Translations under genes and position numbers: made by a program
Notes under the pieces: model-generated
What the model saw: the letters and a program-made list of their open reading frames with translations, nothing else
The model's database searches: none
What the model was told of the DNA's origin: nothing
From: Vibrio echinoideorum
GTDB taxonomy: Bacteria; Pseudomonadota; Gammaproteobacteria; Enterobacterales; Vibrionaceae
Assembly (NCBI RefSeq): GCF_024347455.1
Contig: NZ_AP025483.1
Coordinates: 744,001-808,000 of the forward strand
Direction of reading: 5' to 3'
DNA length: 64,000 nt
Shown: in pieces, positions 1,850 to 52,152 of the stretch
How the letters are laid out: the number at the start of each line of letters is the position of its first letter
Numbering within the stretch: the first letter of the stretch is position 1

Positions 1850-2155
1850 CGCGTTCCCTGTCTGTTCTTTTGTATTTGAGACTAGTCTTACTATATGTTC
1901 CGCTTTCTAAAATGTCAGTAGTTTTTATTTTTAACACTGATGAGTCTAAAAGACTTCTTTCTGGGGTGTTTAATTGACTCTTTTTTGATGTTGAATAACA
2001 CGTTGATGGTTGTTTTTATTGGGTTTCTATCTTTGGCGTACTTCGTGCATTGTCTAAGGAAATATTGCAATAATGATGACTGCATCATGAATTTGGCTAT
2101 TTATACCAATTCCATATAAGCCATTCTTGGCCGTTATCTGAAATGAGGAACGAGT
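1850..2155. other. Intergenic region between GGCT-like gene and nnrS
   Basis: No gene is supported here. It carries the divergent promoters of the flanking genes and an inverted repeat ATGATG-ACTG-CATCAT at 2074-2089 that could be an operator for nnrS, although it does not match the NsrR consensus. A short ATACCAATT-like segment at 2103-2111 resembles the ends of the repeat element at 21313. Confidence 0.5.
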
Positions 2156-3340
2156 TTGTTAAATATCACAGATAAAAGTGTAGAAGACGCAATTCCAGCC
2201 TACCTTCGTTTAGGCTTCCGACCTTTCTTCTTCCTGGGCAGTCTCTATGCTGTTATCGCTATCGTGGCTTGGGTTGTCATGTTCCAAAATGGTCAGCCGG
2301 AGATTTTAAAAGTCCCTGCACTTTGGTGGCACGTACATGAAATGTTGTTTGGCTTTGCTATGGCGATTGTTGTCGGCTTTGTTTTAACGGCGGTGCAAAC
2401 GTGGACGGGAGTCAATGGCACTAAGCATTATCGATTAGCTGCCCTAGTGGGATTATGGCTTGCACCGCGTATTCTATTTTGGACTCCTGCGCCTTTGTGG
2501 CTGATCTCATCGGTTGAGGCACTGTTCTTGATTTTTGCCGCTTACGAGATTGGTTTCCGAGTTGTGAAATCAAAAGGCTGGAAGAACCTGTTCTTTGTTC
2601 CGTTGTTTATACTGGCTATCGTGGCGAATTTTGCTAGCTATGCAACCATTAAGGGCATGCCTCCATTTCCATCGTCTGCAGTATGGCACGCGATGTTGTG
2701 GTGGTTTACGTTGTTATTGTCTGTAATGGGTGGACGAGTGATTCCATTCTTTACGGCGCGTCGTTTTGATTTTGAAAAAGCACAGCCACTCGTTTGGTTA
2801 GAATGGTTAGCGAATCTACCTTTGGTTGGTTTATTTGTATTGAGCTTCTTCCCATTGACTTTTGCTCAAGTTGGCAATGAGTTAATGGTATTTGCAGGTG
2901 TGACTCAATTGGTGCGCTTTATCCGCTGGAAACCTTGGACTACGTTATCTGAGCCCTTGGTGTGGTCGCTGCATGCGGCTTACCTATGTATCCCTTTAAG
3001 CTTGCTGCTGCGAGGTTTATTAGACAACCCGTTCGCGAGCCACAATATGCTGCACTTGTTTGCGATTGGCGGTTTGAGTGGGTTAATTCTTGCGATGATT
3101 ACGCGCGTGACAATGGGGCACACAGGTCGTGCAATCTATAAAGGACCAAGTATGGCGTTAGCGTTCTCGGCTATTTTTATCGCGGCTTTGGTTCGTAGCG
3201 TAGGTGTGACATTTTTCCCTGCGTATTTATTTGAGATGGTGAACATCAGCGCGGGTTTATGGACGTTAGCATTTGGGCTGTTTATCTGGAAGTTCGGCAT
3301 GATGCTATTAACGCCAAGAGTGGATGGTCACCCAGGCTAA
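2156..3340 (+). CDS. nnrS: NnrS family heme/copper membrane protein
   Basis: A 394-residue polytopic inner-membrane protein of the NnrS family, heme- and copper-containing proteins that protect against nitric-oxide stress. N-terminal YLRLGFRPFFFLGS at residues 16-29 is the family signature; roughly twelve hydrophobic segments follow, with conserved histidines in WWHVHEMLFGF (about 62-72), in the AVWHAMLWW segment and in HNMLHLFAIGG. Translation begins at TTG 2156, with GAGGAA 7 bp upstream; no better ATG exists. Monocistronic, closed by the terminator at 3367. In Vibrio cholerae nnrS is under NsrR; no convincing NsrR site is visible here. Confidence 0.88.
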   Translation: MLNITDKSVEDAIPAYLRLGFRPFFFLGSLYAVIAIVAWVVMFQNGQPEILKVPALWWHVHEMLFGFAMAIVVGFVLTAVQTWTGVNGTKHYRLAALVGLWLAPRILFWTPAPLWLISSVEALFLIFAAYEIGFRVVKSKGWKNLFFVPLFILAIVANFASYATIKGMPPFPSSAVWHAMLWWFTLLLSVMGGRVIPFFTARRFDFEKAQPLVWLEWLANLPLVGLFVLSFFPLTFAQVGNELMVFAGVTQLVRFIRWKPWTTLSEPLVWSLHAAYLCIPLSLLLRGLLDNPFASHNMLHLFAIGGLSGLILAMITRVTMGHTGRAIYKGPSMALAFSAIFIAALVRSVGVTFFPAYLFEMVNISAGLWTLAFGLFIWKFGMMLLTPRVDGHPG

Positions 3341-3366
3341 GCGTATTGATTTTCGAACCCATTTTG

Positions 3367-3396
3367 AAAGGGAAGCACTGAGCTTCCCTTTTTTGA
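3367..3396 (+). terminator. Intrinsic terminator of nnrS
   Basis: Stem AAAGGGAAGC / GCTTCCCTTT with loop ACTGA followed by a T run. It may also serve the convergent adenine deaminase gene. Confidence 0.85.
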
Positions 3397-3417
3397 TCGC
3401 AGCAAAGCTCCATTCTC

Positions 3418-4428
3418 TTAGTGAGTATTTTCGGCAAGATATTGGCGCACTTGTGCAATGAGGTCTTCTTTGGCGTGAGGAGAGATGAAACTCGCTTCGA
3501 CAGCATTAATACTGAATTGCGCTAATTCGTTTTTCGTCAGTGGATGAGCATTAGCGACGGCGAAGAAGTTATCATTCATATAGCCACCGAAGTAAGCGGG
3601 ATCATCGGAATTGATGGTGACGCACAGCCCTTTTCTCAGTAACTCGACGATGTTGTGCTCTTGCATGCTGTCGAAGACCTTGAGCTTTGTATTCGATAGT
3701 GGGCAGACCGTCAGCGGTGTGCGTTTAGCGATTAACTGTTCCATCAAGTCTTCATCTTCAACACAGCGAACGCCATGATCAATGCGAGTAATGCCTAACA
3801 GGCTTAATGCATCGATAATGTTTTGTGCTGGCCCTTCTTCTCCGGCATGTGCAACGGCCAAAAACCCTTGATTGATGGCCTCTTGAAATACGTGTTTAAA
3901 CTTCTCTGGTGGGTTGCCTTGCTCTGATGAATCAAGTCCGACACCTATAATTTTGTCTTTGAAGGGAAGCGCTTGTTTTAGTGTTTCAAAAGCACTCTCT
4001 TCATCAAGATGTCGAAGAAAGCACATGATGAGTTGACTAGTAATATCGAGTTCGAGTTCGGCTTGCTGCAAAGCTTGAGTGATACCACCAACAACGGTTT
4101 CAAAAGCTACCCCACGTTCGGTATGAGTCTGCGGGTCAAAAAATATCTCGGTATGAATTACGTTGTCTTGCTGGCATTTCAGGAGGTAAGCCCAAGTTAG
4201 GTCATAGAAGTCTTGTTCATTAATCAGTACGTTAGCGCCTTGGTAATAGATATCGAGAAAGGACTGAAGATTGTGGAATTGGTACGCGTCTTTTACTTGG
4301 TCTGGGTTTTCAAAGGGAATTGAAATGTTATTACGCTTGGCGAGTTTGAACATTAGCTCAGGTTCTAGCGAGCCTTCAATATGCAAGTGCAGCTCAACTT
4401 TAGGTAAGTTTTTGATAAAGCTATCCAT
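3418..4428 (-). CDS. Adenine deaminase (adenosine-deaminase-like, type 2)
   Basis: A 336-residue metal-dependent amidohydrolase that converts adenine to hypoxanthine in purine salvage. Zinc ligands are seen as HLH (residues 14-16 in VELHLHIEG), AHAGEEGP near 200 and the DD of NSDDPAYFGG near 275. The sequence follows the Aah1-type adenine deaminase branch (KAELHLHLEGTLEPEL-like start, DSSEQGNPPEKF, HGVRC, SDDPAYFGGY), not true adenosine deaminase, so annotation as 'add' would be misleading. Good ribosome-binding site AAGGAG just upstream. It is divergent from the DUF3622 gene, and two LacI-size dyads lie in the shared upstream region. The nearby purine permease and gpt (9.8-11.7 kb) belong to the same salvage route. 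Confidence 0.85.
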   Translation of the reverse strand: MDSFIKNLPKVELHLHIEGSLEPELMFKLAKRNNISIPFENPDQVKDAYQFHNLQSFLDIYYQGANVLINEQDFYDLTWAYLLKCQQDNVIHTEIFFDPQTHTERGVAFETVVGGITQALQQAELELDITSQLIMCFLRHLDEESAFETLKQALPFKDKIIGVGLDSSEQGNPPEKFKHVFQEAINQGFLAVAHAGEEGPAQNIIDALSLLGITRIDHGVRCVEDEDLMEQLIAKRTPLTVCPLSNTKLKVFDSMQEHNIVELLRKGLCVTINSDDPAYFGGYMNDNFFAVANAHPLTKNELAQFSINAVEASFISPHAKEDLIAQVRQYLAENTH

Positions 4429-7300: not shown

Positions 7301-8773
7301 TTATGCTTTTTCTGGAATGGCTGCTAGTAATGCAACCATTTGGTTCCAGAACAATTCAACAGTATCGATCTTCACTTTCTCATCAGGAGAGTGTGGGAAC
7401 TTGATCGTTGGGCCGAAAGAAACCATATCCATGTTCGGGTAAGGTTCTTTGAATAGACCACATTCAAGACCAGCATGGATAACCATGATGTTTGGCTTGT
7501 GACCGTAGATACCTTCGTACATGTCTCGGAAGATATGCATGATTTCTGAATCAGCGTCTGGTTTCCAACCTGGGTAAGCACCAGAGAACGCGATGTTAGC
7601 CCCTGCTAGTTCAGCAACAGAATGAAGCATGCTTTCTACTTGGCTACGGCCAGAGTCGATAAGAGAGCGGATCAAGCAAAGTACTGTGATTGAATCTTCT
7701 TCCGTTGTGATAACACCTACGTTTAGAGACGTTTCAACAACACCTTCAATCTCGTCACTCATACGAATCACGCCGTTTGGACATGCGTTAAGTGCCGCGA
7801 TAAAGCGAGCTTGGTCTGCTGATGCTAGTGTGCCCATTTCAACTGAAGCTTCTTCGTTGAAAGTTACGATGCTGTCTTCTACTTTACCTAGCTCTGTTGA
7901 AAGCAGCTCTGTGTAGTAGTTGTATAGCGAAGCCAGTTTTTCTTGGTTTACAGCAGGAACCGCAACCGTTACGAAACCTTCACGAGGGATCGCATTACGA
8001 AGGCTACCACCTTTGAATTCTACGATGCGAAGGTCTAGTTCTTTTGCGTGACCGGCTAGGAAGCGAGCAATCAGTTTGTTTGCGTTTGCACGACCAGTGT
8101 GAATGTCACAACCAGAGTGACCGCCTTTTAGGCCTTTTAGCGTTAGCTTGCGTGTTACGAAGTCAGCTGGAATTGCGTTACGTGCAATTTCAAATGTCAT
8201 TGCGCCGTCGATACCGCCAGCACAACCCATGTACACTTCACCTTCTTGCTCTGAGTCAGTATTAAGAAGGATATCGCCTTCTAGCCAACCTGCTTCAAGA
8301 CCAAACGCACCAGTCATGCCTGCTTCTTCATCTACGGTTAGTAGAACTTCGATAGGGCCGTGTTGGATTTCGTTTGAAGCAAGAACAGCTAGGCAAGATG
8401 CCATGCCCATGCCGTTGTCAGCACCAAGCGTTGTGCCTTTTGCTGTAACCCATTCACCATCGATGTATGGCTGGATTGGATCTTTTGTAAAGTCGTGATC
8501 AGTGTCTTCGTTCTTTTGTGGAACCATATCGATGTGAGCTTGTAGCACGACACCTTTTTTGTTTTCCATACCCGGCGTTGCAGGTTTTTTGATGAATACG
8601 TTGCCCGTTGGATCACGGCGTACATCTAAGCCTTGCTCTGTTGCCCAAGCAATAATGTATTGAGCAAGCTCTTCTTCATGCTTTGAAGGGTGTGGGATTG
8701 AACAAATCTTATCGAAAAACTGCCAAATAGGGGCAGGGGACAATTTACTGATCTCAGAATGGAATTCAGACAC
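7301..8773 (-). CDS. pepD: Aminoacyl-histidine dipeptidase PepD (peptidase D, M20)
   Basis: A 490-residue cytosolic zinc dipeptidase that splits carnosine and other Xaa-His or unspecific dipeptides. M20 metal ligands are visible: HIDMV near residue 80 (His then Asp), the bridging Asp in LGADNGMGMA near 119, the DEEAGMTGA glutamates near 149, and HAGLECG near 456. Length matches E. coli PepD (485). The dimerisation 'lid' lies at about 200-390. Monocistronic; in V. cholerae pepD limits biofilm formation, according to what I recall of that species. It starts 8773 with GGAGTCATC upstream. A PurR-like box lies about 215 bp upstream but nearer the divergent small-RNA promoter. Confidence 0.93.
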   Translation of the reverse strand: MSEFHSEISKLSPAPIWQFFDKICSIPHPSKHEEELAQYIIAWATEQGLDVRRDPTGNVFIKKPATPGMENKKGVVLQAHIDMVPQKNEDTDHDFTKDPIQPYIDGEWVTAKGTTLGADNGMGMASCLAVLASNEIQHGPIEVLLTVDEEAGMTGAFGLEAGWLEGDILLNTDSEQEGEVYMGCAGGIDGAMTFEIARNAIPADFVTRKLTLKGLKGGHSGCDIHTGRANANKLIARFLAGHAKELDLRIVEFKGGSLRNAIPREGFVTVAVPAVNQEKLASLYNYYTELLSTELGKVEDSIVTFNEEASVEMGTLASADQARFIAALNACPNGVIRMSDEIEGVVETSLNVGVITTEEDSITVLCLIRSLIDSGRSQVESMLHSVAELAGANIAFSGAYPGWKPDADSEIMHIFRDMYEGIYGHKPNIMVIHAGLECGLFKEPYPNMDMVSFGPTIKFPHSPDEKVKIDTVELFWNQMVALLAAIPEKA

Positions 8774-9004: not shown

Positions 9005-9066
9005 AGCTCCATCCTGTAATTTAATTACATAAATAAGTTTGTAAAATAACCATAAATGGTAAAAAG

Positions 9067-9116
9067 TGTGACGAACAGCAAAAAATACTTGTAATCTTTT
9101 TTCTTTGAGGTATATT
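9067..9116 (+). promoter_or_regulatory. Promoter of the small RNA/peptide unit, with CRP-like half site
   Basis: TTGTAA (9089-9094) and TATATT (9111-9116) are separated by 16 bp; transcription should begin near 9123. TGTGA at 9067-9071 is a perfect CRP half site, but its partner half is poor. CRP control is therefore only suggested. Confidence 0.55.
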
Positions 9117-9133
9117 AATAACCAACTTCTGAG

Positions 9134-9211
9134 ATGAAGAGTAAATGCTCAAAGGATGAGTCCGTTTTATCGCCTCCAAGGAACCGAGAAATCAAATTCG
9201 TTTTTTATTGA
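9134..9211 (+). CDS. Possible 25-codon leader ORF
   Basis: ATG at 9134 opens a 25-codon frame (MKSKCSKDES...) that ends at TGA 9209-9211, 18 bp before the next start. It starts about 11 nt after the predicted transcription start and has no clear ribosome-binding site, so translation is doubtful; it may be chance. Confidence 0.25.
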   Translation: MKSKCSKDESVLSPPRNREIKFVFY

Positions 9212-9229
9212 TTTATTAAGGTGATAGTT

Positions 9230-9316
9230 ATGAAAGGTTTACCATCTGCAATGTTCTGGATTAACAGCTCTGTTTACACTAGCAACTTTGCATACCCTAC
9301 AAGCTTTGGTTACTAA
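9230..9316 (+). CDS. 28-residue small protein (VcdP-like candidate)
   Basis: ATG 9230 follows AAGGTGA with 6-bp spacing, an excellent ribosome-binding site. The peptide begins MKGLPSAMFWINSS and ends SFGY; 7 of 28 residues are aromatic and only one is charged (Lys2), with no clear transmembrane run. It is the only well-supported ORF of a transcript that ends in a strong terminator 80 nt later, so it is very likely expressed. Length and position suit VcdP, the 29-residue protein of the V. cholerae VcdRP dual-function RNA; sequence identity is not verified. An alternative is an attenuator leader peptide, but the next gene lies 530 bp away behind the terminator. Confidence 0.6.
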   Translation: MKGLPSAMFWINSSVYTSNFAYPTSFGY

Positions 9317-9397
9317 TACCGGAAGCATGTAACTCGAACAGTTTTGTTCACCCCTATATATTGGAATTCTTTTACAGCCCTTTTGGTTGACAGATTC

Positions 9398-9435
9398 TAC
9401 CGCCACTCAGTTTTGAGTGGCGTTTTTTTTGCCTG
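9398..9435 (+). terminator. Terminator of the small RNA/peptide unit
   Basis: CGCCACTCA, loop GTTTT, GAGTGGCG, then eight T. A textbook rho-independent terminator, also of the type that Hfq-binding sRNAs use. Confidence 0.9.
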
Positions 9436-9849
9436 CTACTTTACCGCCTGCTTTTTTATTAACTACTTTCATTGACCATTTCTCCGCTATTCGTTGCGGT
9501 CGTTTTTTGAACGCCAAGCTATCAATTTGCACCTTATTACTGATTCTGTTGGAAAATACATAACTCTTGTGAGTTTGGATTGAGAATTTGTGAGCTACAT
9601 TCTTAATGAAAATAACCAATGGTCGAAAAAATAACCAAATTATTCCGTCGTCTTTTTTGTTTTTAAGATATTGTTTTTAATGGTAATTTGCATTTCCCTC
9701 ATTCTCTTTTAATCGTTCTGTTTCATACGGCATTCTGATAAATATTAATTAGAGCCTTAATTCTATCTGGAATTTGTTATTTGATAACTTTATAATCCAC
9801 AGCCAATCGATTACGCAACCGTTTACTCTTACCCTTATAGGATTCGATA
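9436..9849. other. Long upstream region of the purine permease
   Basis: 414 bp without a supported gene. A minus-strand frame overlaps the terminator and is not credible. The only recognisable site is the PurR-like box at 9813-9828; I found no purine riboswitch core. Confidence 0.6.
9813..9828. promoter_or_regulatory. PurR-like operator before the purine permease
   Basis: ACGCAACCGTTTACTC agrees with the PurR consensus at 12 of 16 positions and lies 22 bp upstream of the permease start, a plausible repressor position for a purine transporter. Confidence 0.55.
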
Positions 9850-11139
9850 ATGTTCGAAAAGCTATTTAAACTCAGTGAAAATGGCACCAATGTGCGCACT
9901 GAAATCATCGCAGGTCTAACAACCTTCCTAACAATGGCTTACATCATTTTTGTAAACCCAATGATTCTAGCTGACGCTGGGATGGACCATGGCGCTGTAT
10001 TTGTAGCAACCTGTTTAGCGGCTGCTATTGGCTGTTTCATCATGGGCTTTGTTGCTAACTATCCAATTGCTCAAGCTCCAGGTATGGGTTTGAACGCTTT
10101 CTTTACCTATGCTGTTGTAATGGGTATGGGTTATACGTGGCAAGTTGCTCTGGCAGCAGTTTTCGTATCAGGCGTAATCTTCATCTTCTTAAGTATCTTT
10201 AAGATCCGTGAATGGATTATCAACTCGATTCCGATGTCTCTGCGTGTTGGTATTTCTGCGGGTATCGGCCTTTTCCTAGCATTTATTGCACTTAGCAATG
10301 CTGGCATCGTAGTTTCTAACCCAGCAACTAAGGTTTCACTGGGCGATATTACAGCGATTGCTCCAATCTTAGGCGCGCTTGGTTTCTTCATTACGATTGC
10401 TCTTGTTCACCGTGGTGTGAAAGGTGCAGTAATGATCGCGATTCTCGCTATCACAGCGATTGGTATTGCTATAGGTGACGTTCAATACGGCGGCATCATG
10501 TCTACACCGCCAAGCCTAGCACCAACATTTATGCAGCTTGATTTCTCTGCTGTATTTGAAATTGGTATGATTTCAGTGGTATTCGCATTCTTGTTCGTCG
10601 ATTTATTCGATACAGCAGGTACTTTGGTTGGTGTTGCTACAAAAGCAAACTTAATCAAAGAAGACGGCAAACTGCCACGCTTGAATAAAGCCCTGCTTGC
10701 TGACTCAACAGCAACGTCTATTGGTGCTCTTCTGGGTACATCAAACACCACGTCTTACGTTGAAAGTGTTGCTGGCGTTGCTGAAGGTGGTCGTACAGGT
10801 CTAACAGCGGTTGTTGTTGGTATCTTGTTCCTACTGGCTCTTTTCTTCTCGCCACTTGCAGGTATGATTCCAGCTTACGCAACATCAGGTGCGTTGTTCT
10901 ATGTAGCAATTCTGATGATGTCAGGCCTAGTTGGCATTGATTGGCGTGATCTTACGGAAGCAGCACCAGTCGTGGTAACATGTCTGCTAATGCCGTTGAC
11001 GTACTCTATCGCTGAGGGTATCTCATTAGGCTTCATCGCTTACGCTGCAATTAAGCTGCTAAGTGGTAAAGGTCGCGACGTTTCACCTGCTGTGTGGGTA
11101 ATGTCGGCTATCTTTATTCTCAAATACATTTTCGCTTAA
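9850..11139 (+). CDS. NCS2-family purine permease (AdeQ/GhxP/PbuG group)
   Basis: A 429-residue inner-membrane proton symporter of the nucleobase-cation symporter-2 COG2252 branch, importing adenine, guanine or hypoxanthine. The opening EIIAGLTTFLTMAYIIFVNP (residues 19-38), PGMGLNAFFTY near 80, LFVDLFDTAGTLVGV near 248 and the SNTTSYVES segment near 300 are family signatures; about 12-14 membrane segments. Length is typical. gpt lies 84 bp downstream without a strong terminator between, so the two may be one salvage operon in which the base is imported and then ribosylated. A PurR-like box precedes it. The exact base specificity cannot be read. Confidence 0.88.
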   Translation: MFEKLFKLSENGTNVRTEIIAGLTTFLTMAYIIFVNPMILADAGMDHGAVFVATCLAAAIGCFIMGFVANYPIAQAPGMGLNAFFTYAVVMGMGYTWQVALAAVFVSGVIFIFLSIFKIREWIINSIPMSLRVGISAGIGLFLAFIALSNAGIVVSNPATKVSLGDITAIAPILGALGFFITIALVHRGVKGAVMIAILAITAIGIAIGDVQYGGIMSTPPSLAPTFMQLDFSAVFEIGMISVVFAFLFVDLFDTAGTLVGVATKANLIKEDGKLPRLNKALLADSTATSIGALLGTSNTTSYVESVAGVAEGGRTGLTAVVVGILFLLALFFSPLAGMIPAYATSGALFYVAILMMSGLVGIDWRDLTEAAPVVVTCLLMPLTYSIAEGISLGFIAYAAIKLLSGKGRDVSPAVWVMSAIFILKYIFA

Positions 11140-11223: not shown

Positions 11224-11688
11224 ATGAGCAACAAATTCATTATCACTTGGGACAACATGCAGACTTACTGCCGTCAACTAGCAGAAAAGCAAATGCCAGC
11301 AGAACAGTGGAAAGGTATCTGGGCTGTAAGCCGTGGTGGTTTGGTTCCTGGTGCAATCTTGGCTCGTGAGCTAGGTATTCGTCACGTAGATACGATTTGT
11401 ATTTCTAGTTACGACCACGATCACCAGCGTGATATGACTGTAGTTAAAGCACCTGAAGGTGACGGTGAAGGCTTCCTAATCGTTGAAGATCTTGTTGATA
11501 GTGGTGACACTGCACGCAAGCTTCGCGAAATGTACCCTAAAGCGAAACTGATCGCTGTTTGTGCAAAACCATCTGGCGCACATTTATTAGACGAGTACAT
11601 CGTTGATATCGCTCAAGACACATGGATTGAGCAACCTTGGGATACTAGCCTAAGCTTCGTTGAGCCGGTAAATCGCAAGTCAAAATAA
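11224..11688 (+). CDS. gpt: Xanthine phosphoribosyltransferase Gpt
   Basis: A 154-residue enzyme that joins xanthine, guanine or hypoxanthine to PRPP, giving the nucleotide. Matches E. coli Gpt (152 residues) along its length: [19 protein letters not shown] near 30-48, and the PRPP loop [13 protein letters not shown] at about 82-94. Acts at the inner face of the membrane in E. coli. It follows the purine permease at 84 bp and is closed by a terminator at 11711, so permease and gpt appear to be a transport-coupled salvage pair. Confidence 0.95.
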
Positions 11689-30522: not shown

Positions 30523-30822
30523 TTTCTATTGTTAATGATTTACAGTAAGTCGGGAGGGGGCGTGAGTTTGGTGCGGTATCGGCAGGCTTTGATATTTTAA
30601 TTTTTTGGGTTCTAAGCTGATTTCTAAGTTAGTTTCTTTGTGACTGGGAAATGTGAGTATCTTGAAGGGTTCTGTTACTTTTTAGTGCTATTCAATGATT
30701 CTATTTGTATGTGTTCAGTTGACTATTTGAGTGCGTGTCTAATTCTGTGATTAACGATGAAAAATAATCAAGATTAATTAGTTCAGCTATTGATAAACTT
30801 GTTGTTACTTTTCTTTGCACAT
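30523..30822. other. Gene-free spacer between thiI and gcvB
   Basis: 300 bp with no ORF, repeat or promoter that I can support on either strand. Confidence 0.5.
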
Positions 30823-31071
30823 AAAAAAACACCGCCCATAAGGCGGTGCAAACAAATTTGACAGACAGGTCAAAATAAATACAGGAAGTACATGCCTCGT
30901 TTCAGTATAGAACTGCAACAAAACATTTGGTAGAACTCTACCCAACTCGAAAAGAACGAGTTTGCAAACACAACATCGCAGGAGCTAAACCAATTGATTC
31001 TAGAGAGAATCAAGCCGTTCAGGCTAGCTACTGCGGGATGAAATATAGAATTTCTCTGGCCGCTAGGCAAT
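30823..31071 (-). ncRNA. gcvB: GcvB small RNA
   Basis: Hfq-dependent sRNA that represses many amino-acid and peptide transporter mRNAs. It is read on the minus strand, divergent from gcvA exactly as in enterobacteria. Conserved blocks: the GU-rich R1 seed GATGTTGTGTTTGCAAA (complement of 30961-30977 region), ACTTCCTGTA followed by GACCTGTCTGTC shared almost word for word with E. coli GcvB, and the terminator CACCGCC hairpin with T run (complement of 30823-30848). A consensus -10 (TATAAT on minus, 31083-31078) puts the 5' end near 31071, giving about 249 nt, longer than the roughly 205 nt of E. coli. Confidence 0.93.
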
Positions 31072-50727: not shown

Positions 50728-52152
50728 ATGAGTAAGATAGCGAAGCAAGACGTTGCGCGTCTTATCGAGTTAGTCGGTGGCAAAGAGAATATTGCGAGTG
50801 TCAGCCATTGTCTGACTCGACTGCGTTTTGTATTGAACGATACGGAACTGGCGAACAAAGCAGAACTAGAAAAGCTGAAACTAGTAAAAGGTTGCTTTAC
50901 TAACGCAGGTCAATTCCAAGTTGTGATTGGCACCGAGGTTGATGAGGTGTACGCACTTCTGATTGAGCAAACTGGCAAAGATTCATCGTCAAAAGGTGAG
51001 GCTAAACTTGCAGCCCGTCAGAACATGAACTTTCTTGAACGTGGTATCTCCCATTTAGCCGAAATTTTCGTACCACTGCTGCCTGCCATTATTACTGGTG
51101 GTTTGATCCTTGGTTTCCGTAATGTGATTGGCGACATTCGCATGTTCGACGGCAAAACCTTGGTTGAAATCAGCCAATTCTGGGCAACCGTTCACTCATT
51201 CTTGTGGCTGATTGGTGAAGCTATTTTCTTCTTCCTACCGGTTGGCGTTTGTTGGGCAACGGTTAAGAAACTCGGCGGAACGCCTATTCTGGGTATCACA
51301 CTTGGTGTGACCTTGGTTTCACCACAACTCATGAACGCATACATGATAGGTAAATCGGTACCTGAAGTGTGGGACTTTGGTCTGTTCGTTATTGAGAAAG
51401 TCGGTTATCAGGCACAAGTGATCCCTGCGATGCTAGCGGGTGTGGCTCTGGCGTTCATCGAGACTAACCTCAAGCGCATTGTGCCTGCTTACTTGTACCT
51501 TGTGATTGTACCGTTTGTATCGATTATATTGTCAGTGATTCTAGCTCACGCCTTTATTGGCCCATTCGGTCGTATGTTAGGCGATGGTGTGGCATTCGCG
51601 GCTAAAGCTGCAATGACCGGTGACTTTGCGATTCTTGGTTCAGTAGTCTTTGGTTTCTTATACGCACCTTTAGTTATCACGGGTATTCACCACACAACCA
51701 ACGCTGTGGATTTGCAATTGATGCAAGACTTAGGTGGTACACCAATCTGGCCTTTAATTGCACTATCAAACATTGCACAAGCTTCTGCGGTTGTCGGCAT
51801 CATTATTTTGAGTAAGCGCGAAGGTGAACGAGACATCTCGGTACCTGCGGCAATCTCAGCATATTTAGGCGTGACGGAACCAGCGATGTACGGCATCAAC
51901 CTTAAATACAAATTCCCAATGTTGAGCGCGATGATCGGCAGTGCCGTAGCCGCTGCAATCTGTGGTAGCGCTGGTGTTATGGCAAATGGTATCGGTGTGG
52001 GCGGCTTGCCGGGTATCTTCTCGATTCAACCGCAATATTGGTCGATTTACTTAGTCGCGATGCTGGTGGCGGTTGTACTGCCGATAACGCTGACGCTGTT
52101 CTTCTACAAGCGAGCACAGATGAAAGGCGAACTAGAAACCGCCAACGCATAA
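50728..52152 (+). CDS. treB: PTS trehalose transporter EIIBC TreB
   Basis: Imports trehalose as trehalose 6-phosphate. 474 residues: EIIB domain with phosphorylated Cys28 in SHCLTRLRF, then EIIC with about ten membrane segments (FVPLLPAIITGGLILGFRNV near 112-131, GVTEPAMYGINLKYKF near 382-397). Start at 50728 (MSKIAKQDV) behind GGTGGGG matches E. coli; a longer start at 50707 is possible. It lacks an EIIA domain, so it should use EIIA-Glc. treC follows behind a hairpin. Confidence 0.95.
   Translation: MSKIAKQDVARLIELVGGKENIASVSHCLTRLRFVLNDTELANKAELEKLKLVKGCFTNAGQFQVVIGTEVDEVYALLIEQTGKDSSSKGEAKLAARQNMNFLERGISHLAEIFVPLLPAIITGGLILGFRNVIGDIRMFDGKTLVEISQFWATVHSFLWLIGEAIFFFLPVGVCWATVKKLGGTPILGITLGVTLVSPQLMNAYMIGKSVPEVWDFGLFVIEKVGYQAQVIPAMLAGVALAFIETNLKRIVPAYLYLVIVPFVSIILSVILAHAFIGPFGRMLGDGVAFAAKAAMTGDFAILGSVVFGFLYAPLVITGIHHTTNAVDLQLMQDLGGTPIWPLIALSNIAQASAVVGIIILSKREGERDISVPAAISAYLGVTEPAMYGINLKYKFPMLSAMIGSAVAAAICGSAGVMANGIGVGGLPGIFSIQPQYWSIYLVAMLVAVVLPITLTLFFYKRAQMKGELETANA

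Follow-up and report, generated by a model that had tools for sequence, protein, structure and literature searches.

The vcdRP unit of Vibrio echinoideorum: a conserved leader and signs of separable halves

What is the short unit at 9067–9430 of the window, the 64,000-nucleotide stretch of Vibrio echinoideorum DNA analyzed here? It contains, in order and on the plus strand, a CRP-like site, a promoter, a conserved leader, a Shine–Dalgarno (SD) sequence, a 28-codon ORF, UUCACCCC, and a terminator. An earlier note had called it a likely VcdRP homologue in a pepD neighborhood, and the promoter, ribosome-binding site, ORF, CCCC, and terminator that it named were all present where it placed them. 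The unit lies between a divergent pepD-type aminoacyl-histidine dipeptidase gene (7301–8773, minus strand; TIGR01893, 587.5 bits, cut-off 343.75) and a downstream permease gene (9850–11139, plus strand), which had no NCBIfam match at 1e-10 and is presumably of the xanthine/uracil type. We take these neighbors, which have the same order in V. metoecus, to be vc2279 and vc2278, respectively. A xanthine phosphoribosyltransferase gene (11224–11688, plus strand) lies beyond the permease; it scored well over the cut-off of the general family model and just short of that of the Tet(34) exception model (341.2 bits, cut-off 345). A DNA search of the genome found a single copy of the unit. Rfam gave no match to the unit at the gathering threshold, and its sole match at that threshold in the window was a GcvB small RNA (30821–31033, minus strand, 98.3 bits). 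Ten matches at E up to 10 were rejected, all far under gathering scores and mostly over the terminator.

The peptide encoded by the ORF (MKGLPSAMFWINSSVYTSNFAYPTSFGY; ATG at 9230 to TAA at 9316) matched the NCBIfam equivalog model NF053523.1, "small protein VcdP", over all 28 positions with 64.4 bits (cut-off 50). The earlier remark that standard annotation usually misses such a unit is out of date now that this model exists. At E 1, the window peptide hit no other NCBIfam model and no Pfam family. The available text of the V. cholerae study places vcdRP, 306 nt long, between vc2278 and vc2279, with the ORF at nt 104–193 and a seed at 223–232 that ends in four C (PMC8672173). If transcription is taken to start at 9125, which was picked to fit these same coordinates, the window ORF falls at 106–192, CCCC at 227–230, and the end at 306, within 2 nt of the published numbers. 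From the stop codon to the end of CCCC there are 38 nt in the window and 39 in the published coordinates.

Relatives carried the same unit in the same spacer. RNA identity to the window was 99% for V. splendidus MOR1 and 12E03, 98% for V. tasmaniensis, 86% for V. harveyi, 84% for V. anguillarum, 82% for V. mimicus, and 81% for V. furnissii and V. metoecus. V. metoecus is a close relative of V. cholerae; it has the pepD–permease order of the window and a 29-residue form with an Asn after Met that is absent in the window VcdP. V. mimicus also has a 29-residue form, with the permease seen and pepD past the locus end. A pattern scan of named contigs gave 114 stretches, all with titles of Vibrio, Aliivibrio, Photobacterium, Moritella, Vibrionales, or Vibrionaceae; V. 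cholerae was absent among them and was compared through published coordinates and relatives. DNA matches to 9060–9440 at E ≤0.001 occurred in 102 of 150 sampled Vibrionaceae genomes, many of them short. Among 184 loci, a set in which some genomes are counted twice via two collections, 151 had both pepD and the permease and 23 had one of the two (several end at the locus edge). The 10 with neither were Photobacterium second copies, Moritella loci, and L068, a chance match. The published VcdRP alignment named seven species, V. splendidus among them (PMC8672173).

By these comparisons, the unit is an orthologue of the published VcdRP and an already known system. The proposed homology is borne out by the VcdP match, the synteny, the 99% identity to two V. 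splendidus loci, and the transcript geometry; both VcdP similarity and conservation of the ORF across Vibrio pepD–permease spacers were found. The unit is almost certainly a splendidus-clade vcdRP, that is, an independent, CRP-repressed, Hfq-dependent dual-function RNA of ~306 nt acting on PTS mRNAs, with VcdP acting on GltA.

The promoter (9089–9116) consists of TTGTAA (−35, 9089–9094), 16 nt, and TATATT (9111–9116). The promoter scan alone was barely above chance (8 sites versus 4.3 expected, sd 2.2), and the call was accepted because of conservation and position, not the scan count. Transcription would start at ~9125 (±2), as judged from the published V. cholerae geometry. Upstream of the −35 box, as in the published VcdRP, lies the CRP-like operator TGTGACGAACAGCAAA (9067–9082), to which binding is predicted. 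It has 8 of 10 CRP consensus letters, with a perfect left half and a weak right half, and is the best match in 80 nt. Among 151 distinct upstream sequences, which include the window clade, 127 had a site with 8 or 9 letters, versus ~4% of shuffles. CRP binding has been published for V. cholerae, where CRP represses vcdRP (PMC8672173). The note's term "CRP-controlled" is corrected accordingly to CRP-repressed. The Rho-independent terminator (9401–9430) has a stem at 9401–9422 followed by 8 T, and terminator-like sites numbered 2 versus 0.8 expected.

The predicted base-pairing seed of VcdR, UUCACCCC (9347–9354, with CCCC at 9351–9354), corresponds to the published seed; within the window clade, both it and the terminator are conserved. 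For V. cholerae VcdR, seed tests, target repression, Hfq dependence, and RNase E processing have been published (PMC8672173). When the tail (9340–9365) was checked against PTS leaders, as the note had advised, predicted pairing was strong for nagE-type (−19.6 kcal/mol), treB (PTS trehalose IIBC, 50728–52152, plus strand; −16.0), and ptsG-type (−15.8) genes. The background was 50 window ORFs, treB included, that do not overlap and have 150 codons or more; its median was −9.5 kcal/mol and its best value besides treB −15.1. A perfect run of 7 pairs occurred in ptsG, nagE, and treB, and in 4 of the 50 background ORFs, which include treB. Pairing with ptsH was unexceptional (−10.6 kcal/mol), although GGGGU is present at its SD. 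Seven other PTS genes lay between −4.9 and −14.9 kcal/mol, and a twelfth PTS locus (L202) was excluded because the script found no ORF. Target start codons were picked by script or by hand and the pairing results are indicative; gene names other than treB (nagE-type, ptsG-type, ptsH, and the rest) are our presumptive assignments.

The best conserved piece of the unit is the leader core (9146–9190), which is better conserved than the VcdP protein downstream. It follows a 5′ hairpin, CUUC-UGAGAU-GAAG (9126–9139), whose sequence is variable among relatives. Two ANGGA motifs in the core resemble CsrA sites. One lies in hairpin 1, GCUC-AAAGGAU-GAGU (9147–9161, GGA at 9154–9156), which in the window folds with loop AAGGA; the other lies in motif 2, CUC-CAAGGAACC-GAG (9174–9188, GGA at 9180–9182), which reads CANGGAACYGAG, N being free, in nearly all rows. 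At E 0.01, a covariance model of the core, R1, had matches in 273 of 329 Vibrionaceae genomes (some of them weak) and in 93 of 394 genomes across the order. The 43 places with ≥36 bits belonged to Vibrionaceae, to genus f11/g23, or to genus f2/g14, which is taken as Moritella because its peptide is of the identical type.

We aligned 119 distinct leader-plus-SD rows. The first stem showed nine arm combinations, none of them broken: GCUC/GAGU, GCUC/GAGC, GUUC/GAAC, GUUC/GAGC, GCUU/GAGU, GCUU/GAGC, GCUU/AAGC, GUUU/AAGC, and GUUU/AAAC. The search expression behind these rows fixed two of the four stem pairs, permitted C–A breaks in the other two, and required GGA in the loop and the second motif; the degenerate leaders L267/L289, in which the second GGA is changed and the first still reads GGGA, thus fall outside the 119. 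Of the two motifs, only the first had its ANGGA exposed in a conserved hairpin loop, no stem being broken in the 119 rows. The motif 2 stem gives no covariation evidence because its CUC/GAG hardly varies. CsrB-like RNAs are also encoded in the genome (two places exceed the Rfam cut-off and two fall just short of it), and their loops include CUUCAGGAUGAAG and CACGGAACAAGUG, loop words common to the vcdP leader.

A candidate anti-SD, UAUCGCCU (9168–9175), is complementary to AGGUGAUA (9219–9226) at the vcdP SD (AAGGUGA, 9218–9224). Evidence for this helix was mixed. It was present in the MFE and centroid structures of the full RNA (z −2.27); in the isolated leader, the centroid had it and the MFE did not. 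The mean duplex energy was −9.4 kcal/mol versus −5.0 with shuffled anti-SD, 115 of the 119 rows had a duplex better than the mean of their own shuffles, and pairing probability was 0.55 versus 0.25 for the control, the observed value being higher in 80 of 102. One compensatory change (AUUGCC with GGUAAU; L069, L262) and uncompensated mismatches (L040/L184, Moritella, genera g3 and g10) were observed. We regard the modeled helix as possible. A simple stable leader fold was unsupported (z 0.02 for 9125–9229 and 0.68 for 9141–9190; V. metoecus, −0.64).

Loci beyond Vibrionaceae were also compared. Among 394 genomes of the order, 28 scored over the cut-off of the NCBIfam VcdP model; none of 14 named control genomes did. 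Outside Vibrionaceae, the genomes over the cut-off were G159 and G183 (genus f11/g23), both also with the leader; the one locus of this genus with flanks (L321) was beside pepD. In genus f25/g47, weak leader matches (23 bits or less) were found in the 20 genomes listed and a weak VcdP match in one (22.5 bits). All seven of these loci that were inspected (L358–L364) had a MSGSNSTYWFAQSLYTQGFNYPNP-type peptide next to pepD (58–59% identity), and a xanthine phosphoribosyltransferase-like ORF was recognized by eye in three. Six of the seven leaders contained the GCCUCCANGGAACCGA motif twice, GUC-AGGAN-GAC, and GUUCAAGGAU; L358 had one motif only. Weak leader matches at L365–L367 showed nothing recognizable. 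Loci related to VcdRP are found beside pepD in two further families.

The sequence suggests that the conserved leader controls VcdP translation in cis; CsrA would be the likely ligand of the two ANGGA motifs and might act by freeing the SD. Like CsrA-controlled leaders and CsrB-type hairpins, the leader has ANGGA in hairpin loops and more than one candidate site; unlike them, it also has a nearly invariant CGCCUCC, which resembles the 16S anti-SD. Quite possibly, the conservation reflects something other than CsrA, such as another protein, a second base-pairing seed, or a fixed fold. CGCCUCC and GGAACYGAG are nearly invariant, which exceeds what CsrA needs. The CUC/GAG stem of motif 2 hardly varies, and in MFE folds of the f25/g47 leaders only the GUUCAAGGAU part has its GGA in a hairpin loop. 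Against such a binder or fold stand the covarying hairpin with GGA in its loop and the same loop words in the CsrB-like RNAs of the genome; in f25/g47, moreover, the motifs occur in duplicate and in another order, which fits binding sites better than a single fold. In the literature, the available text of the 2021 EMBO J VcdRP paper did not contain "CsrA", "leader", "hairpin", or "secondary structure" (PMC8672173), and the available main text of a V. cholerae CsrA paper did not contain vc2278, vc2279, or "Vcr" (PMC7858070). For VcdRP together with CsrA, the literature search listed a Rickettsia paper only. No paper on VcdP-less or seedless VcdRP, or on the leader, was found in a search whose scope left out preprints and most subscription journals.

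The published study states that base-pairing sequence and ORF were conserved in all tested species (PMC8672173, available text). In our sample, at least 18 Vibrio genomes had the seed without the leader or an intact VcdP (e.g. L290–L296, L311–L314, L316). A pepD search covered 30 genomes mostly without a convincing leader match (25 of the window genus and 5 of genus g8), which are part of the genomes lacking one, 36 more being outside the set. The permease lay beyond pepD in 25 of the 30, all of the window genus. A model of the tail from seed to terminator matched 20 of these 25 at E ≤0.01 (best of 150 shuffles, 4.2) and three more at E 0.02–0.06; L297 and L300 gave no match. Nineteen of the 20 showed ACCCC, or ACCCT in L292 and L294, and L288 keeps the later part only. 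The count of 18 excludes L289, which has a broken vcdP, and it does not represent 18 separate losses because the genomes are related. In 16 of the 18, the match extended into the terminator (L299 and L302, seed part only), and 16 had a TTGTAA-type promoter upstream (not L293 and L295).

With filters off, the leader model found only L289 under E 0.5 among the 30 loci. The VcdP profile detected L289, in which a stop at codon 10 breaks the ORF, and in L294 what remains of the C-terminus (E 0.03); another five scores fell at E 0.15–0.93. In L289, the second GGA and an otherwise conserved leader CCG are altered; the first GGA, the seed, and the terminator are intact. A whole-genome search of the other 24 window-genus genomes with peptide alignment A1 gave the L294 remnant and otherwise, at best, E 0.0098, a match in G613 at a different place with a stop inside. 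Among the controls, G009, G075, and G159 were detected and the Moritella-type G309 was missed, so divergent VcdP copies could be missed.

The reverse form was also found. Photobacterium second copies (L051/L164, L053/L106, L136) and four Moritella loci had leader, ORF, and terminator and no seed, with neither pepD nor the permease nearby. The Moritella peptide (14.8 bits, far under the NCBIfam cut-off) would be VcdP-like by its position and its YP..(L/F)GY end only. No seed was seen in the Aliivibrio-type locus L050/L071, which lies beside pepD and the permease. In L136 (Photobacterium chitinilyticum), the seedless vcdP (1661–1744) is tail to tail with an SgrR homologue (1906–3609; 113.9 bits, model cut-off 476), and none was seen by eye among the ORFs of L106 and L164. 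Across the loci seen, leader and ORF form a pair, and the seed can be there or missing independently of it.

These seedless loci are what one would expect if the small protein alone mattered in the window clade, the RNA being a plain mRNA and CCCC incidental. We consider that very improbable, since the window clade conserves both seed and terminator, the seed persists in the 18 Vibrio genomes, the PTS leaders pair well, and the available text on V. cholerae reports seed tests (PMC8672173).

The ORF has 7 aromatic residues in 28 codons. In 66 distinct 28-codon ORFs, pN/pS was 0.36 in the vcdP frame versus 1.11 and 0.84 in the other frames, for which a simpler counting rule was used. Relatives have the peptide in their pepD–permease spacer as well. 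The ORF is more than chance because of this recurrence, pN/pS, and the VcdP match. Upstream leader ORFs of 25 and 22 aa were dismissed, as the stretch after CCG differs in length among relatives. V. tapetis (L040/L184) has leader, seed, and terminator and a strongly changed 31-residue frame (9 bits versus VcdP). L279 (G011) has a divergent 28-residue VcdP-like ORF ~125 nt past the leader, a spacing longer than most. That the 28 codons are a chance frame in a non-coding sRNA would fit the seed-bearing Vibrio relatives without the ORF and the divergent V. tapetis frame, and is practically dismissed by the in-frame-only constraint, the NCBIfam match, and the Western blot reported for VcdP in V. 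cholerae (PMC8672173, available text). There, VcdP activates citrate synthase GltA, and changing its residues 15–18 to alanine abolished the activation (PMC8672173). These residues are SVYT in the window peptide, numbered via the 29-residue V. metoecus form. In the GltA of this genome, the VcdP target residue F383 is conserved by hand count on an alignment whose reference chain we take to be E. coli.

For the coding dual-function RNA, the mechanism would be as follows. With abundant PTS sugar and low cAMP, CRP would leave and vcdRP RNA would be made. The 3′ part of this RNA, VcdR, would pair via UUCACCCC with the start regions of nagE, treB, ptsG, and probably ptsHI, so that less sugar is taken up. 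As taken from the available V. cholerae text, VcdR would act with Hfq, and VcdP would bind hexameric GltA and raise its activity (PMC8672173). Tentatively, and with some doubt, we propose that VcdRP is a chimera of a sugar-transport sRNA (seed and terminator) and a "P cassette" (the ultra-conserved leader and vcdP). CsrA on the two GGA motifs would open the anti-SD:SD helix and so switch on vcdP translation. Citrate-synthase activation would then depend on the Csr carbon system, and VcdR on CRP. Many Vibrio species would have lost the cassette as a whole, and Photobacterium would have copies of it that lack the seed; it would also occur beside pepD in two or more further families, one of which has duplicated and re-ordered leader motifs.

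Among known systems, V. cholerae VcdRP agrees with the unit in locus, promoter, CRP-like site, ORF, seed, terminator, and transcript length; it differs in its 29-residue VcdP (28 in the window) and in the right half of the CRP site, which is weaker in the window. SgrST of enterics likewise has an ORF upstream of a 3′ seed and PTS targets, but it has another regulator, and SgrT acts on PtsG whereas VcdP acts on GltA (PMC8672173, available text). The window unit has pepD and the permease as neighbors, and its peptide matches VcdP, not SgrT. Spot 42 is also a CRP-repressed sRNA, as cited in the available V. cholerae text (PMC8672173), but its Rfam model gave the unit 18.2 bits against a gathering score of 80, mostly over the terminator.

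The unit itself matters mainly as a confirmed annotation of a published dual-function RNA. What deserves to be pursued are the leader and the separable modules, which go beyond the VcdRP facts in the literature searched. The wider sample qualifies the statement that both parts are conserved in all tested species, since the halves separate. In SgrST the ORF can be missing; in VcdRP either half can be the missing one. Through the vcdP leader, the Csr and CRP carbon systems may be connected. What is new are the signs that the halves are lost separately and that the conserved front end may be a control switch.
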